Shown here in pieces: positions 9,886 through 52,414 of a DNA stretch of 64,000 bases (positions are counted from its first letter, which is position 1; each line of letters starts with the position of its first letter). The notes beneath the pieces were generated by a model that worked only from the letters and a program-made list of their open reading frames with translations, was not told the DNA's origin and made no database searches. Position numbers and translations under genes: made by a program. This stretch comes from Herpetosiphon aurantiacus DSM 785 (GTDB lineage: Bacteria; Chloroflexota; Chloroflexia; Chloroflexales; Herpetosiphonaceae), in contig CP000875.1 of assembly GCA_000018565.1 (NCBI GenBank), positions 4,231,199 to 4,295,198 on the forward strand, written 5' to 3'.

Positions 9886-10800
9886 TTAGTTACTGGGTGC
9901 GGCAACGGTCTGACGACGAAATGGCCATTTGCCATTGACAATAATCACGCCCAGCAAAATCAAACAGAGGCCAATCAGCATATCGCTGCGAATGGCTTCA
10001 TTCAAAAACAGCCAGCCCCAAAAAATCGCGAAGATTGGCAAAATATAGGTAACTTGGGCGGTTCGCGCCGCGCCAACCTGCTTTACCAACCAAAAGTAGA
10101 GAATTTGGGCAATGCCTGTGCCTAAAATGGCTAAACCAAACAGTGAGCCAAGCGAAACCAAACTTGGCATTTGCCAACTATTATGATCAACCACGAGCGC
10201 AACTGGCAAAAGCATAATCGCGCCACTTGCCATTTGACCAAAGGCGGGAATCAGCGCTGGCAGGCTGCCAAAGTTGCGGCGCACATACAGCGTACCAATT
10301 CCATACATCGATGAGGCAATGATACAGGCAATTTGGCCCCACGTATCCAAGCTATTGATATTGCCAATCGAACGTGAAAAGAGATAGACCACGCCCGCAA
10401 AACCCAAGACAATGCCAAAGGTACGCACGCCCGTCAAACGCTCGGAACGCACAAAGGCAAAAGCTAAAATCACTGTCCACAAGGGTGTTGTCGCATTATA
10501 GATCGAAGCCAAGCCGCTGGCGTTAGTACCCATTTTGTGTTCGCCCCATGCAAACAAACAGTACGGCAGAGCTGCATTCACGAAACCAACAAAACCCAGT
10601 GAATACCATAGTTTGCGCTCACGCGGTAGCTGAACTTTTTGCCAGCGCAACACAGCATAAATTAACACCGCAGCAATCGCCAAACGCAAAAACACAAAGG
10701 TAATTGGTGGAATGGTTTCTACGCCCAGTCGAATGAATAAAAATGATGCTCCCCAGACTAAGGCCAAAATTAAGAGAACGCCCGTTTGCCGCAGTGTCAT
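9886..10800 (-). CDS. EamA/DMT-family transporter
   Basis: A 304-residue inner-membrane protein with about ten hydrophobic segments in two EamA repeats. The first repeat has LVWGASFLFIRLGVETIPP and VFLRLAIAAVLIYAVLRW; the end of repeat one has YNATTPLWTVILAFAF, and the second half has ILPIFAIFWGWLFLNEA with the typical NEA ending. Members export amino acids or metabolites. I use the ATG at 10800 because it has GGAAGGG upstream; an earlier in-frame ATG at 10881 would add 27 polar residues and has a poor ribosome site. It lies between the MocR-like gene and ilvE, so an amino-acid substrate is a fair guess only. Confidence 0.87.
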   Translation of the reverse strand: MTLRQTGVLLILALVWGASFLFIRLGVETIPPITFVFLRLAIAAVLIYAVLRWQKVQLPRERKLWYSLGFVGFVNAALPYCLFAWGEHKMGTNASGLASIYNATTPLWTVILAFAFVRSERLTGVRTFGIVLGFAGVVYLFSRSIGNINSLDTWGQIACIIASSMYGIGTLYVRRNFGSLPALIPAFGQMASGAIMLLPVALVVDHNSWQMPSLVSLGSLFGLAILGTGIAQILYFWLVKQVGAARTAQVTYILPIFAIFWGWLFLNEAIRSDMLIGLCLILLGVIIVNGKWPFRRQTVAAPSN

Positions 10801-10889
10801 ACCTAAATTCCCTTCCTTGAAAGCCAGCAATCTATCGATCAACCGAGGCTGAGTAGCACTGTTACGGCCTTGTTTCGGCATTCACCAAC

Positions 10890-12386
10890 TTACATCAGTG
10901 GGGTGGTTTCGCGCCAAGCACGGGCAGCAAGTTGACCACAACGCAAGACATGGCGGGTTAGCACATCGCCAAGGATGCGAATTCCACGATCAATTAATTC
11001 TGGTGATTGGGTGGCAAAACAGAGCCGTAAGTGGGCGTTGCGTGGCGGTTGTGGAAAAAAGACATTGCCAAGGGTCACGCCAACGCCTGCTTCAATCGCC
11101 TCGGTATAAATATCGGTGCCATTTAATCCAGAGGGCAAGGTTAGCCAGTAGCATAACCCGCCACGTGGATGCGTCCATTGAATATCACGGGGACAATAGC
11201 GGTTCAACGCTCGTTCCATGGCATCGCGACGCTCACGATAGAGTTCACGCACATAGCGCAAATGCGCCGCCAACTGACCACGGCCAAGATAATCGGCCAA
11301 AGCTCGTTGCAATAATGGCGAGCAGTGGAGATCGTTGCCACGCTTGGCAGTCAGCAACGGGTGCAAAAATTCGTCACGGGCAACCAAATAACCTAGGCGT
11401 AAGCCCGGAGTTAGAATTTTGGAGAAGCTGCCAAGATAGACCACCTGCCCATTAGTATCGCGGGCTTTGATTGGGTGTGGTGCTTGAGCATCGTAGCTCA
11501 GCGGCCCATAGACATCATCTTCTAAAATAATTAAGTTATGTTCTTGGGCCAATTGCAATAGGGCTTCTTGGCGCTCGGTCGAAAGGCAAACGCCGGTTGG
11601 GTTGTGGAAGGTTGGCACGGTATAGAGCAACCGTGGTTTGTATTCACACAATACCCGTTGCAAAATATCCAACCGCAAGCCTTGATCATCCAATGGAATG
11701 CCGATTAAGCGCACACCCAAGGCCGTAGCCTGCTCGATAAAGCCCAAATAGGTTGGCTCCTCGACCAAAACCACATCGCCTTGGCGAACAAAGGCCTTTA
11801 ATGCCAAGGCTACGCCCTGCTGAGCACCAGTTGTCACCAGCACATGGTCGGGCGAGGTTACAACATTGCGGTCGAGCAGCCATGTGGCAATCGCTTCGCG
11901 CAAACATAATTCGCCTTGGGTTGGGCCATAGCCTAGGGCGCTGGGGTCGCGCAGGGCTTGCTGAATTGCGCGGCCAATTTCACGCACTGGAAAGGTTTCT
12001 TCGGCTGGCGCGGCTTGGGCAAAGGAGATTAAATTTGGCTGTTGGGCCAAGCGTAGCATATCGGCCAACATGCCTTGGCTAAACCATGGCGTTTGTAGCT
12101 CATCCACTACCCGTTGGCGAATCTCATATGCTGGAATAATCGGCTTGATCCGCTCGGCGACGAAGGTGCCGCGACCAACGTAGGCCTCAACCCAACCACT
12201 TGCTTGCAGTTCGCTATAGGCATTGTGAACCGTCAAACGGGTGAGACCAAGTGATTCAGCTAAATCGCGCACTGGCGGCAGTTTCGTGCCAGCTGGCAAC
12301 GAGCCACTCCGAATCCGCTCTTGCAGTTGTTCGGATAATTGAATATAGAGTGGTTTGGCGTGCTGACGATCAAGCTGAAATTCCAT
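10890..12386 (-). CDS. MocR-family regulator (GntR HTH fused to class I aminotransferase) or 2-aminoadipate-type aminotransferase
   Basis: A 498-residue two-domain protein. Residues 1-75 are a GntR winged helix (PLYIQLSEQLQERIRSGSLP, then LPPVRDLAESLGLTRLTVHN). Residues 120-490 are a fold-type I aminotransferase with GYGPTQGELCLREAIATWL, ITTGAQQG-like VTTGAQQGVALAL, TVPTFHNPTGVCLS and the PLP lysine in YLGSFSKILTPGLRLGYLV. MocR proteins sense PLP-linked amines or amino acids and act as repressors or activators. The ATG at 12386 follows GAGAAAGG; an upstream in-frame start at 12425 would run into the hairpin at 12424-12461. Neighbouring EamA and ilvE genes are likely its targets. Confidence 0.88.
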   Translation of the reverse strand: MEFQLDRQHAKPLYIQLSEQLQERIRSGSLPAGTKLPPVRDLAESLGLTRLTVHNAYSELQASGWVEAYVGRGTFVAERIKPIIPAYEIRQRVVDELQTPWFSQGMLADMLRLAQQPNLISFAQAAPAEETFPVREIGRAIQQALRDPSALGYGPTQGELCLREAIATWLLDRNVVTSPDHVLVTTGAQQGVALALKAFVRQGDVVLVEEPTYLGFIEQATALGVRLIGIPLDDQGLRLDILQRVLCEYKPRLLYTVPTFHNPTGVCLSTERQEALLQLAQEHNLIILEDDVYGPLSYDAQAPHPIKARDTNGQVVYLGSFSKILTPGLRLGYLVARDEFLHPLLTAKRGNDLHCSPLLQRALADYLGRGQLAAHLRYVRELYRERRDAMERALNRYCPRDIQWTHPRGGLCYWLTLPSGLNGTDIYTEAIEAGVGVTLGNVFFPQPPRNAHLRLCFATQSPELIDRGIRILGDVLTRHVLRCGQLAARAWRETTPLM

Positions 12387-46649: not shown

Positions 46650-46874
46650 CTAGTCATCCTCGAGGACTAATAACGCTCCGACGGTACATGGGAGCCATGC
46701 ACAAATTCGCCCCAAGTCATCAAGCGGCACATTCTTAATCGTGTTATTGAGGAGGCGTTCAACAGCGCTCCGACTTGCACCAGATTCTGCGGTGATCACT
46801 CGTATCCCCAACGTGCGATTTTCTTTGACTTCTTTTTGTGCCACAAGGACACGGAGGTAGCTTTTGACTTTCAT
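46650..46874 (-). CDS. Small HTH protein (Cro/C1-like)
   Basis: A 74-residue protein with a helix-turn-helix: TLGIRVITAESGASRSAVER followed by LLNNTIKNVPLDDLGRICAW and ending TVGALLVLEDD. The order (scaffold helix, SRS-x-V-x-RLLNN recognition helix, D-x-L-x-I-C, C..G.LL) fits the short XRE/Cro_C1-26 family whose members are often regulators next to mobile elements. The ribosome site is weak. It lies between the IS remnant and tnpB, on the opposite strand. Confidence 0.65.
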   Translation of the reverse strand: MKVKSYLRVLVAQKEVKENRTLGIRVITAESGASRSAVERLLNNTIKNVPLDDLGRICAWLPCTVGALLVLEDD

Positions 46875-46998
46875 GGCAATAGCTTAATATAGTTAAATAT
46901 ATTATGCAACTACTACGATAATAGTGTTTTTAATTCAAATATATTGATTATTGAACAACGTAGTGGTATAGTGTCAATACGTAAAAGGAAGTCTGCTC

Positions 46999-48156
46999 AT
47001 GCGAATGCTGACCCGTTGTTACAAATACCGTCTGCAACTCACACCGACCCACGTTGAAACCTTGGTACAGTGGGCGGGTTGTCGGCGCTTCGTCTGGAAT
47101 TGGGCGCTGCACTGCAAGCAAACCCACTACCAAACAACGGGTCAACGGCTGAGCTATCAACGGCTTGCGGCGGCATTGGTTGATCTGAAACGTCAGCCCA
47201 AAACGGCATTTTTGCGTGATTGCCACTCACAACCGTTGCAACAAACCTTGATGGATTTGGAAACGGCCTTCAGCAACTTTTTTGCCAAACGCGCCAAGTA
47301 CCCGCGATTCAAATCACGCAAAATCACGCCGCACAGCCTACGCTTCCCGCAAGGTGTGATCGTGGTTGATGAACATACCATCAGCGTGCCAAAAATCGGG
47401 CTGATACGGGCGATCATTCATCGCCCCTTGCAAGGCATAGCGAAGAGTGCAACGATCAAACAGGATGCCACAGGCGCGTGGTGGGTCATTTTCGTCTGTC
47501 ATATCGACCTCCCTGATGTTCAACCAACAGCTGATCGACCTGTGGGCATTGATGTCGGGCTTGAATCCTTCACCACGCTGTCAACGGGCGAGAAGACAGC
47601 ACCACCAAAGTTCTACTGTCGAAGCCAAAAGAAACTTGCCCGTGCTCAGCGCAAACTCTCACGCGCCCAAAAGGGCAGCAACAACCGCTTGAAAGCAAAA
47701 AAGCACGTTGCCCGTATCCACAAGAAAATCAACAACCAACGTGCCGATTGGCTGCATAAGCATGCGTTGGGGATAGTTCGCCAATTTGACGTGGTGTGCA
47801 TCGAAGACCTGAATATTAAAGGCCTTGCGAGAACCAAGCTGGCCAAATCATTCAGTGATGCCGCACTGAGTACCTTCATGCAACGATTGCAGGAAAAAGC
47901 TGAATGGCACGGACGACGAGTTGTTAAGATTGGGCGGTTCTACGCCTCATCGAAAACTTGCCACTTCTGTCATTCCAAGACTGCCTTGACGCTGGCTGAC
48001 CGCGTGTGGACATGCCCCACCTGTGGCACGACCCATGATCGCGATGGCAACGCCGCGATCAACATGCTGTATGAAGGGCTACGCCTGCTTGCCGTTGGGA
48101 CGACGGAAAGCCAAAACGCTGCTCGAGATGGTGTAAACCCAGCGAAACGCTGGTAG
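46999..48156 (+). CDS. tnpB: TnpB, RNA-guided nuclease of an IS605-type element
   Basis: An intact 385-residue TnpB. The N-terminal HTH_OrfB region has TPTHVETLVQWAGCRRFVWN and the OrfB_IS605 core AFSNFFAKRAKYPRFKSRK. The RuvC active site is complete: D185 in PVGIDVGLES, E269 in VVCIEDLNIKGL, and D347/D349 in THDRDGNAAINML. The Zn finger has CHFC (321-324) and CPTC (339-342). TnpB proteins of this kind cut DNA guided by an RNA made from the element's right end. ATG follows AAAAGGAAG. It probably persists by homing without TnpA here. Confidence 0.93.
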   Translation: MRMLTRCYKYRLQLTPTHVETLVQWAGCRRFVWNWALHCKQTHYQTTGQRLSYQRLAAALVDLKRQPKTAFLRDCHSQPLQQTLMDLETAFSNFFAKRAKYPRFKSRKITPHSLRFPQGVIVVDEHTISVPKIGLIRAIIHRPLQGIAKSATIKQDATGAWWVIFVCHIDLPDVQPTADRPVGIDVGLESFTTLSTGEKTAPPKFYCRSQKKLARAQRKLSRAQKGSNNRLKAKKHVARIHKKINNQRADWLHKHALGIVRQFDVVCIEDLNIKGLARTKLAKSFSDAALSTFMQRLQEKAEWHGRRVVKIGRFYASSKTCHFCHSKTALTLADRVWTCPTCGTTHDRDGNAAINMLYEGLRLLAVGTTESQNAARDGVNPAKRW

Positions 48157-49619: not shown

Positions 49620-52217
49620 TTAGAAATTTGTGTTCCAAATTGGCCAGGTTTGGGTTGCGGCACTCCAATTCCAAATCGTCCATTCGTTGCGGCTCTTCCA
49701 GCTACCATTCCATTTGCGCAATTGATACCAGAGGAAAATGCGCACTGCCAATGGTTGAACCGAGATGTTCAGGCCTAAGTTGCCGTGGAACCCATTGGTA
49801 ATGTGGTAGGTCGCGCTGGCCTTGGCTTCGAGCGAGGTTTTGAGGAAGTCGGCGTTGATGCCTACGCCACCGCGAGCGATAAAGATGGTAACAGCGGCGG
49901 TAGCACTGGCCGAAGCCCAAACCGTTGGCGTAATCGAAACATTGGCGCTGGCTGAGATTGGCACATCACAGGCGGTTGCAACAATCTTCCAAGGAATTGA
50001 GATGCTGCCACTGGCTGACAAGCCCAATTGAATTGGAATCGGGCCAACCATAAAGGTTTTAGTTACCGAGAAGAAGGTCATCGTGGTTTGATACAGATTG
50101 CCAGTGCGTTGAACACCACAAGCGATGCGTTCTTTGATTGGGGTAAAGACATTGTTGCCCAAGACTTTGACATAGGCTTCAAAGTAGCGATACTTGGTGC
50201 CATTTTCGGTTTGGACATATGAGGTAGCTTTGGCATCGGCCAAGGTGTAGCTCCACGACCAGGCATGGGCTTTGGCTTCACCGTGGGCAAGGGCGGTAAT
50301 ATCTGGGCCATCGCTCAAGTACAAGCGAGCTTTCAATTCGCCCTTGAGGTCGCCACCGCCAACAAATTTTTGCCAATTCCAATCGAAGGCGTTCAGCGTT
50401 GGAGCATCGCCGTTGGCATAGAGCAACTCGCGAGCCGTGTGGCGAGCTACTGGGCTAGTTTCGTTGGTGTAGGCTTGGAGCAATAAGGCTTGAGTTTCAG
50501 CCGCTGGGAACTTGCGTAAGGCATCAATTGCCGAGGTGCGCACAATTTCGTTGCTATGGCTCAAGTAGCCACTGATAACGCTCAAGTTGGTTGCTGGGCC
50601 AGCATTGCCCAAGGCACGCAAGGCTAGGTCGCGGTCGAGGTCGGTTTTGGCTTTGGCGAGCTTGGTTTCAATAATTTGGCTGAGTTCTTGCGCCAATTGT
50701 GGTTGTTTGGCCTGCACATTATTGGCAATTGCGCCCAAGACCAACAAGGCTTGCTTGGCATCGCTGCCATTGGCTTGCACCAAGTTGCGCACAGCAGCGA
50801 TGGTTTCAGCGCTTGGCTCACCAACTGTCAACGCAGTCAAGGCTTGAGTTCGGGTGGTTTGATTCAGGCTTTGGTTACCAACAAAGTGCTTGATGATCAT
50901 GGCTTGGGCTTGGCTATCAACCACGCCAGTCAAGGCACCGATAATCCCTTCGTGCAAGGCTGGATTGGTACGGCCTTTGCTCAATTGTTGATCAAGCTGG
51001 GCCAAAGCGCCATCAACCGTGTTTAAGGTTGCACGAAGGCGAGTTACAGCGTTGGGGTCGCTAGGTGCAGCTGCAAGTTCCTTCAAGGCCGTCGCCAAAT
51101 CGGCAGCTGCCAAACCACGGTCAGCATTAGCCTTATTGCTGGTCACGCTGGCGACAATATCGGCTGATTTGTATTCTTTGCCTTCGATTGTGCGAATCAG
51201 GTTGGTAATTGATTTAGTGCTGGCCTTGCCTTCGAATGATTGTGGCTCTAAGAAGCCAGGAATCGTGCCTTCATAGCGAATCGAATCGTCAGAATCGGCT
51301 CCTGATTGAATGCCGTAGCCTGAGCCTTCGTAGTTGTTGAGGCTATTTTCGGTGCTGAAGCCGCTGCGAATCCGTTGGGTCGTGGTATTTTTGAGCAAGA
51401 TCCCTGCTCGCAAATCGTAGATTGCAACACTGGTGCTTTCAATTTTGGTTGCTTCAGCATTGGCAATTGAACGATCAGCAAAGCTCTTGTAGGATTTTTC
51501 GGTGCGTTTTTTGGTAATTTCAACCGTTTGGGCATCGATCATGCGGCTGGTGTAATCGGCGGTATATACGCCTGAAACATCGCTTTCGCCAATGCTATAC
51601 GGTTGCAAGCACTGAATTTGGGTAGGATCTGAGCACTCGCCGATTGGATTTGGATCGTAGAAGAGGTACATTTGCAACTGTGAAAGCGCTGCTCGCTTGA
51701 TATTTTGCACATCTTCAGTATCAGCGCTATCGAAATACAGGCCATAGATCGTGCCATTACGATCTTGTTGGAAGTAGAAAGGGCGAGCTAATTCAGCATC
51801 AGCAGTCCGGCCAATCACTTCAGGATCAGTGACCTGTTGCCAGCCAGCCTCAGTTTTGTTGTACATCACAGGGTTAATAACTTGGGCTCGCAGGTAAGCA
51901 CTGTAGCTATCGTAGGCATAGCGTTCGACTTGCAAATAGCCTTGCAGATTGAAGCTGTTGCTATCGTTGCGAACACCACTGCTTTGCTCTTGGGTGGTTG
52001 AAACCGTATCAACCAAGGTTGACCAGTAGTATTGATAGATACTGTTTGCTGGATAGTTGTAGTGTTCGCCGGGCAGGGTAGCAGGCAATTCACTTGCGGG
52101 GGTCGCTTGCTTGCTTTGGCTTTGAGCAGCAGCACTGCTTGGAATCAGTACCAACTGGACGGTCAAGGCGGTCAGTAGGATCAGCGAAAACAATCGAACC
52201 AGACGTGGATGAGCCAT
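49620..52217 (-). CDS. Secreted vitellogenin / large-lipid-transfer-protein-like protein
   Basis: An 865-residue exported protein. A signal peptide (about 1-31, ending SSAAAQ) is followed by a domain (about 45-270) with LLTP hallmarks: LPGEHYNYPANSIYQYYWST at its start, NGTIYGLYFDSADTEDVQNI then KRAALSQLQMYL (172-185), where animal vitellogenins have NIKRGILSLLQ, and GESDVSGVYTADY (about 210-222), where they have E.DVSG.C...Y. Residues about 370-605 are HEAT-like helices resembling the lipovitellin superhelix, with LALRALGNAG and VRTSAIDALRKFP. The rest (about 610-865) is beta-rich, probably a lipid-cavity sheet. ATG at 52217 follows GGAGGAAG. It is monocistronic, with a strong terminator. 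Confidence 0.78.
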   Translation of the reverse strand: MAHPRLVRLFSLILLTALTVQLVLIPSSAAAQSQSKQATPASELPATLPGEHYNYPANSIYQYYWSTLVDTVSTTQEQSSGVRNDSNSFNLQGYLQVERYAYDSYSAYLRAQVINPVMYNKTEAGWQQVTDPEVIGRTADAELARPFYFQQDRNGTIYGLYFDSADTEDVQNIKRAALSQLQMYLFYDPNPIGECSDPTQIQCLQPYSIGESDVSGVYTADYTSRMIDAQTVEITKKRTEKSYKSFADRSIANAEATKIESTSVAIYDLRAGILLKNTTTQRIRSGFSTENSLNNYEGSGYGIQSGADSDDSIRYEGTIPGFLEPQSFEGKASTKSITNLIRTIEGKEYKSADIVASVTSNKANADRGLAAADLATALKELAAAPSDPNAVTRLRATLNTVDGALAQLDQQLSKGRTNPALHEGIIGALTGVVDSQAQAMIIKHFVGNQSLNQTTRTQALTALTVGEPSAETIAAVRNLVQANGSDAKQALLVLGAIANNVQAKQPQLAQELSQIIETKLAKAKTDLDRDLALRALGNAGPATNLSVISGYLSHSNEIVRTSAIDALRKFPAAETQALLLQAYTNETSPVARHTARELLYANGDAPTLNAFDWNWQKFVGGGDLKGELKARLYLSDGPDITALAHGEAKAHAWSWSYTLADAKATSYVQTENGTKYRYFEAYVKVLGNNVFTPIKERIACGVQRTGNLYQTTMTFFSVTKTFMVGPIPIQLGLSASGSISIPWKIVATACDVPISASANVSITPTVWASASATAAVTIFIARGGVGINADFLKTSLEAKASATYHITNGFHGNLGLNISVQPLAVRIFLWYQLRKWNGSWKSRNEWTIWNWSAATQTWPIWNTNF

Positions 52218-52414
52218 GGCTTCCTCCAAGGTAAGGAAATAGTTGGTGGATAGTGTTTTCGAAGTAGGAGTTTGTTGTCTGGCTCTATTTCACCATATTC
52301 AATTACCCAACACTAGTTCTTAAGTGATCCTTAAAGCGATATTCAAGCGATACAGCTAGCTATATCACTAGCCATAATTCTGTGCTTGCAAATGTGCCAT
52401 TGCTAAAATATCGG

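Follow-up and report, generated by a model that had tools for sequence, protein, structure and literature searches.

The open reading frame at 49620..52217 (minus strand) of the window, the stretch of 64,000 nucleotides from the genome of the Herpetosiphon aurantiacus type strain that we analysed, encodes a protein of 865 aa which, by family and by fold, is almost certainly a large lipid transfer protein (LLTP). The assignment draws on a match to the Pfam family Vitellogenin_N (PF01347; 7e-20), on structure matches and on dN/dS. The homology of two of its modules, the N-sheet and the helical domain, is established by computation, and the C-terminal sheets of the family are probably present as well. 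Taken as a whole, the observations are best explained by an exported LLTP with a cavity that would bind lipid outside the cell membrane; we put the probability of this reading at roughly 0.7.

A ribosome-binding site, GGAGGA (52222..52227, minus strand; read directly from the sequence), is located 4 nt ahead of the ATG at 52217, and for this reason we took that codon as the start; the frame upstream of it, LEE.M, is common to the orthologs. Residues ~1-31 (MAHPRLVRLFSLILLTALTVQLVLIPSSAAA; 52125..52217, minus strand) read by eye as a Sec-type signal peptide that has no lipobox Cys, and the AlphaFold2 model places a helix at residues 6-23, within this region. The LLTP homolog is thus presumably exported. 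The GC content of the gene is 0.507, the same as that of the host. The motifs listed in an earlier note made from the letters of this DNA, NGTIYGLYFDS, NIKRAALSQLQMYL (residues 172-185), GESDVSGVYTADY, ALGNAG (535-540) and AIDALRKFP, together with Cys195 and Cys203, were all found in the translation of 865 aa.

The same note had placed the protein in the vitellogenin/LLTP family, and the profile searches bear this out. Vitellogenin_N matched the whole protein with 71.6 bits (the cut-off of this family is 24 bits) in two stretches, which cover the N-sheet and the helical domain; besides it, the Pfam scan of the focal protein returned HEAT_2 (6.1e-8) and no other family. All eight members of the bacterial family matched PF01347, the relatives that we scanned scoring 56-83 bits. 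When residues 50-326, the N-sheet domain (51240..52070, minus strand), were taken alone, with the HEAT repeats left out, the match was still above the cut-off (6.4e-9, 35.4 bits), and this part alone matched in eight members out of eight. A profile of the N-sheet made from the eight bacterial proteins was run against 177,635 PDB sequences; it picked lipovitellin (5e-7) and MTP (0.012), with nothing else below an E-value of 0.6, and a profile ending ahead of the HEAT_2 region showed the same behaviour. The full family profile reached lipovitellin at 1.2e-17 in a single stretch (profile positions 83-554) and MTP at 3.4e-8 (positions 93-587); designed HEAT proteins also ranked high with this profile. 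A phmmer search of PDB with the single sequence produced no match; therefore, the family alignment is needed to see the relationship.

In the alignment made with the N-sheet profile, ESDVSGVYTADY pairs with ETGVEGICQTTY of lipovitellin and with EVDISGNCKVTY of MTP. The helix motif of the N-sheet, NIKRAALSQLQMYL (51663..51704, minus strand), lines up with NIVRGILNLFQLSL in lipovitellin and with NIKRGLASLFQTQL in MTP; the motif ESDVSGVY (residues 211-218; 51564..51587, minus strand) is aligned to ETGVEGIC and EVDISGNC, respectively. Four residues, E211, G216, Y222 and K236, are invariant among the eight bacterial proteins. As a lead only, we take it that Lys236 may correspond to MTP Lys189, a position beyond the printed alignment. 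Asp169 of MTP (in our own numbering), which belongs to the EVDISG motif, aligns with Asp213, a residue kept in six of the eight proteins. A salt bridge of MTP Asp169 with Lys187 and Lys189 is required for lipid transfer and for PDI binding (PMC5538283).

The disulfide of the animal N-sheet, C156-C182 in lipovitellin (PMC5538283), is absent: where animals have G-x-C, the focal protein has G-V-Y (Tyr218), and none of the eight bacterial proteins has a Cys at the position of this disulfide, a trait of the animal members that stands outside the Pfam definition. The suggestion that Cys195 and Cys203 provide a replacement did not survive comparison of the cysteine columns of the alignment; these residues sit in a loop insertion (51609..51635, minus strand) that is limited to close Herpetosiphon copies and is away from the position of the family's disulfide. 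Only one Cys pair, Cys700 and Cys750 (49968..50120, minus strand), is conserved without exception across the eight proteins; it probably forms a disulfide.

The AlphaFold2 model of the focal protein, of moderate confidence (pLDDT 66.8, pTM 0.41), consists of a strand-rich N-domain with one long helix, of helices from ~374 to 601 and of long strands to the end. The helical superhelix carrying ALGNAG (residues 362-603; 50409..51134, minus strand) is supported by a PF01347 stretch (441-588), by the helices of the model and by the VIA alignment to lipovitellin 1LSH. In a Foldseek search of PDB the nine best matches were all to MTP, lipovitellin, honey-bee vitellogenin or apoB, with MTP in the first place (2.3e-30). 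VIA-align superposed 468 residues over 54-591 on lipovitellin 1LSH (Z 21.9, rmsd 5.9) and 638 residues over 48-865 on MTP (Z 20.9, rmsd 10.3), rmsd values that are large; the best protein from outside the family, a HEAT protein, had Z 13.1. The comparison with 1LSH and MTP that had been proposed as a check thus gave a matching fold over residues 48-865, and the predicted fold is LLTP-like, with N-sheet, helical arch and C-terminal sheets.

Among the known LLTPs the large subunit of MTP is the closest in size (865 aa versus 884-894 in PDB chains), has the same order of N-sheet, helical domain and C-terminal sheets, and is the best Foldseek match, aligned over 48-865; unlike MTP, the bacterial protein is predicted to be secreted, has no N-sheet disulfide and no known PDI partner, and there is no apoB in the cell. 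Lipovitellin/vitellogenin (1LSH, 9ENR) is the best match by sequence among natural proteins of PDB (1.2e-17) and by VIA score (Z 21.9), and has the motifs N..RG.L..LQ, E..vsG and ALGNAG in common with the bacterial protein; the latter, however, is much shorter, has neither vWF-D nor DUF1943 (Pfam) and has Tyr in place of the N-sheet Cys. The N-terminal beta-alpha1 region of apoB is similar in the fold of N-sheet and helical arch (Foldseek 1.3e-17), whereas the long lipid-surface belt of apoB (4,526 residues in 9ea7) has no counterpart. As the N-sheet disulfide, vWF-D and DUF1943 are all absent, the bacterial protein is a minimal, MTP-sized LLTP and not a vitellogenin; nor can it strictly be called apoB or MTP.

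The H. aurantiacus genome carries three copies of the LLTP gene, one of them on a plasmid of 340 kb. Three further Herpetosiphon genomes contain orthologs; more distant relatives, again full-length, come from another genus of the family (G007) and from a genus of the same order (G045). When the plasmid copy and these two relatives were left out of the profile, it still recovered all three, with 600 shuffled decoys absent from its matches. In searches that overlap in part, we used Vitellogenin_N on 400 Chloroflexota genomes, the family alignment on 158 Chloroflexia genomes and the N-sheet profile on 47 and 393 genomes of two other Chloroflexota classes; no further full-length member appeared in these several hundred genomes, and the N-sheet profile detected all six positive genomes, our positive control. 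Weak matches in other Chloroflexota span the HEAT-like end only and fail the N-sheet profile; we did not count them as members. A scan of a genome-contig collection, a search for close relatives, matched only H. llansteffanensis, and a plasmid collection gave no match to the family. In Pfam, PF01347 includes some bacterial proteins.

The order of genes around the focal gene is the same in four Herpetosiphon species. Contamination by an animal genome is rejected by this common gene order, by the GC content of the host and by the low dN/dS. We also rejected the cargo of a mobile element: no such element borders the focal gene, and the empty site is clean in two species. In these two (G002, G004), 397-398 bases separate the HU gene from the histidine phosphatase gene, and the LLTP gene is missing from the interval (L074 5590-5986, L075 6246-6643); 219 bases are kept on the downstream side of the empty site, at 92-93% identity, and 25 on the upstream side. 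In a tree of six flanking genes, G005, which has the LLTP gene, groups with G002 and G004 with support 100. Given this grouping, the simplest reading is that the gene was probably lost in the two sister species, transfer into G005 being the less simple alternative. The LLTP gene is an accessory single gene with no mobile flanks and a fixed place within the genus.

No conserved operon partner was seen among the neighbours. Those of the paralogs and of the G007 and G045 copies differ, and we can therefore name no partner protein; nor did the neighbours include a receptor, an acceptor protein or a lipid gene travelling with the LLTP gene. As to what the surroundings do hold, the interval 46650-48156 of the window has a gene that by eye is TnpB-like, of IS200/IS605 type (46999-48156, plus strand), and a small ORF, both present in this genome only, the interval in G001 being short. 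The upstream membrane-protein ORF has 172 aa in G001 versus 132 aa here and was apparently truncated by the insertion. The plasmid paralog (L064 7329-9986) adjoins a Peptidase_C25 (gingipain family) gene at 10515-11492, and at 13211-15322 of L064 the peptide VLFLHIVGRVP recurs in several small ORFs, pointing to a repeated DNA element. An FG-GAP repeat protein (seven stretches; L063 4028-6058) is encoded ~1.3 kb downstream of the second chromosomal copy, and a protein of 1063 aa with no Pfam match (L066 3795-6986) directly upstream of the G045 gene on the same strand.

The description of the organism as gliding, predatory filaments (PMC3368417) fits the earlier note, which had guessed at a gliding, possibly predatory filament; Chloroflexi have no LPS-containing outer membrane (PMC3368417). 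We propose that the minimal, MTP-sized LLTP would be exported to the outside of the cell membrane, where its helical arch and C-terminal sheets may enclose a hydrophobic cavity and bind lipid as in MTP and lipovitellin, so that lipid could be picked up and shuttled outside the membrane. The cargo could be lipid from lysed prey or, alternatively, lipid of the cell itself on its way to sheath or vesicles. Binding of lipid by the focal protein is likely; any particular cargo or route is doubtful.

The chief rival of this proposal keeps the LLTP fold by descent and gives it another use: the protein would be a secreted or surface binding protein, acting as an adhesin or in recognition or defence, and would no longer move lipid. 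The lack of lipid genes among the neighbours and the accessory nature of a gene that two Herpetosiphon species do without agree with such repurposing, as does the reported binding of pathogens by animal vitellogenins (PMC8727950). Against it stands the C-terminal sheet, the expected lining of the cavity: no other part is under such tight constraint, and its strands have alternating hydrophobic faces. In comparisons with orthologs in other Herpetosiphon species, omega was 0.08-0.13 for the whole protein and 0.03-0.06 for the C-terminal part; between the chromosomal paralogs the C-terminal part is 83% identical, the N-sheet 48%. Selection on the gene is purifying and reaches its greatest strength in the C-terminal sheet. 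Hydrophobic and polar residues alternate in the C-terminal strands beyond shuffling (combined p 2e-5; e.g. 727-748) and do not in the N-sheet strands (p 0.34), a result to be read as supporting evidence only, with the strand limits taken from the model. We consider repurposing unlikely.

Less probable still is that the C-terminal part (residues 608-865; 49623..50396, minus strand) is an unrelated beta domain, e.g. a membrane-inserting sheet, joined to an LLTP N-module and acting at a membrane surface with no enclosed lipid. This part has no PDB sequence match, no Pfam match above the cut-off and no sequence match to a known lipid-binding domain, and vWF-D and DUF1943 are absent from it in Pfam at E-values up to 10. 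Folded alone (pLDDT 68.9), it gave VIA scores to MTP (Z 8.3-8.4) tied with those of unrelated outer-membrane barrels (Z 8.8). In Foldseek, on the other hand, MTP, lipovitellin and vitellogenin took the first four places, MTP being first (7.6e-6) and lipovitellin third (1.6e-4), and VIA aligned the part to residues 623-877 of MTP, the C-terminal region of that protein. Foldseek on the part alone, the amphipathic strands and the highest conservation point to LLTP C-terminal sheets that are likely to face lipid; we call the sheets only probable because VIA ties MTP with barrels and no sequence match exists. A weak match to DUF7223 below the threshold was seen in four of the eight members (best E-value 0.021).

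Very improbable is a HEAT-repeat protein of generic kind, secreted and beta-rich at its ends, with a Vitellogenin_N match driven by HEAT. Generic HEAT matches alone were an outcome that the earlier note had named beforehand as refuting it, and the HEAT_2 match and the rank of designed HEAT proteins might suggest this reading. We rejected it as an artefact: the N-sheet-only and HEAT_2-free profiles still find LLTPs, which refutes it at the sequence level, LLTPs score much higher in the fold comparison than HEAT proteins do, and the HEAT-only matches of Chloroflexota fail the N-sheet profile.

LLTPs have been treated as animal machinery of lipoprotein assembly and yolk; PMC1783640 and PMC5538283 discuss only animal members. 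Our search of the open-access literature found no paper on bacterial LLTPs, which is weak evidence of absence. The lipid-carrier family LLTP is not confined to animals. More tentatively, and at somewhat less than even odds, the bacterial proteins may form an old branch with working lipid cavities that moves lipid outside a predator's membrane; the animal proteins MTP, vitellogenin and apoB would then have an ancestry in common with it, either inherited or acquired through gene transfer. A minimal secreted relative from bacteria makes one ask whether the family arose in bacteria, moved into them or predates both, and it would make it possible to study the lipid-cavity design of LLTPs without PDI or apoB. 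The protein would also be a candidate for the capture of lipid outside the cell by a predatory bacterium.
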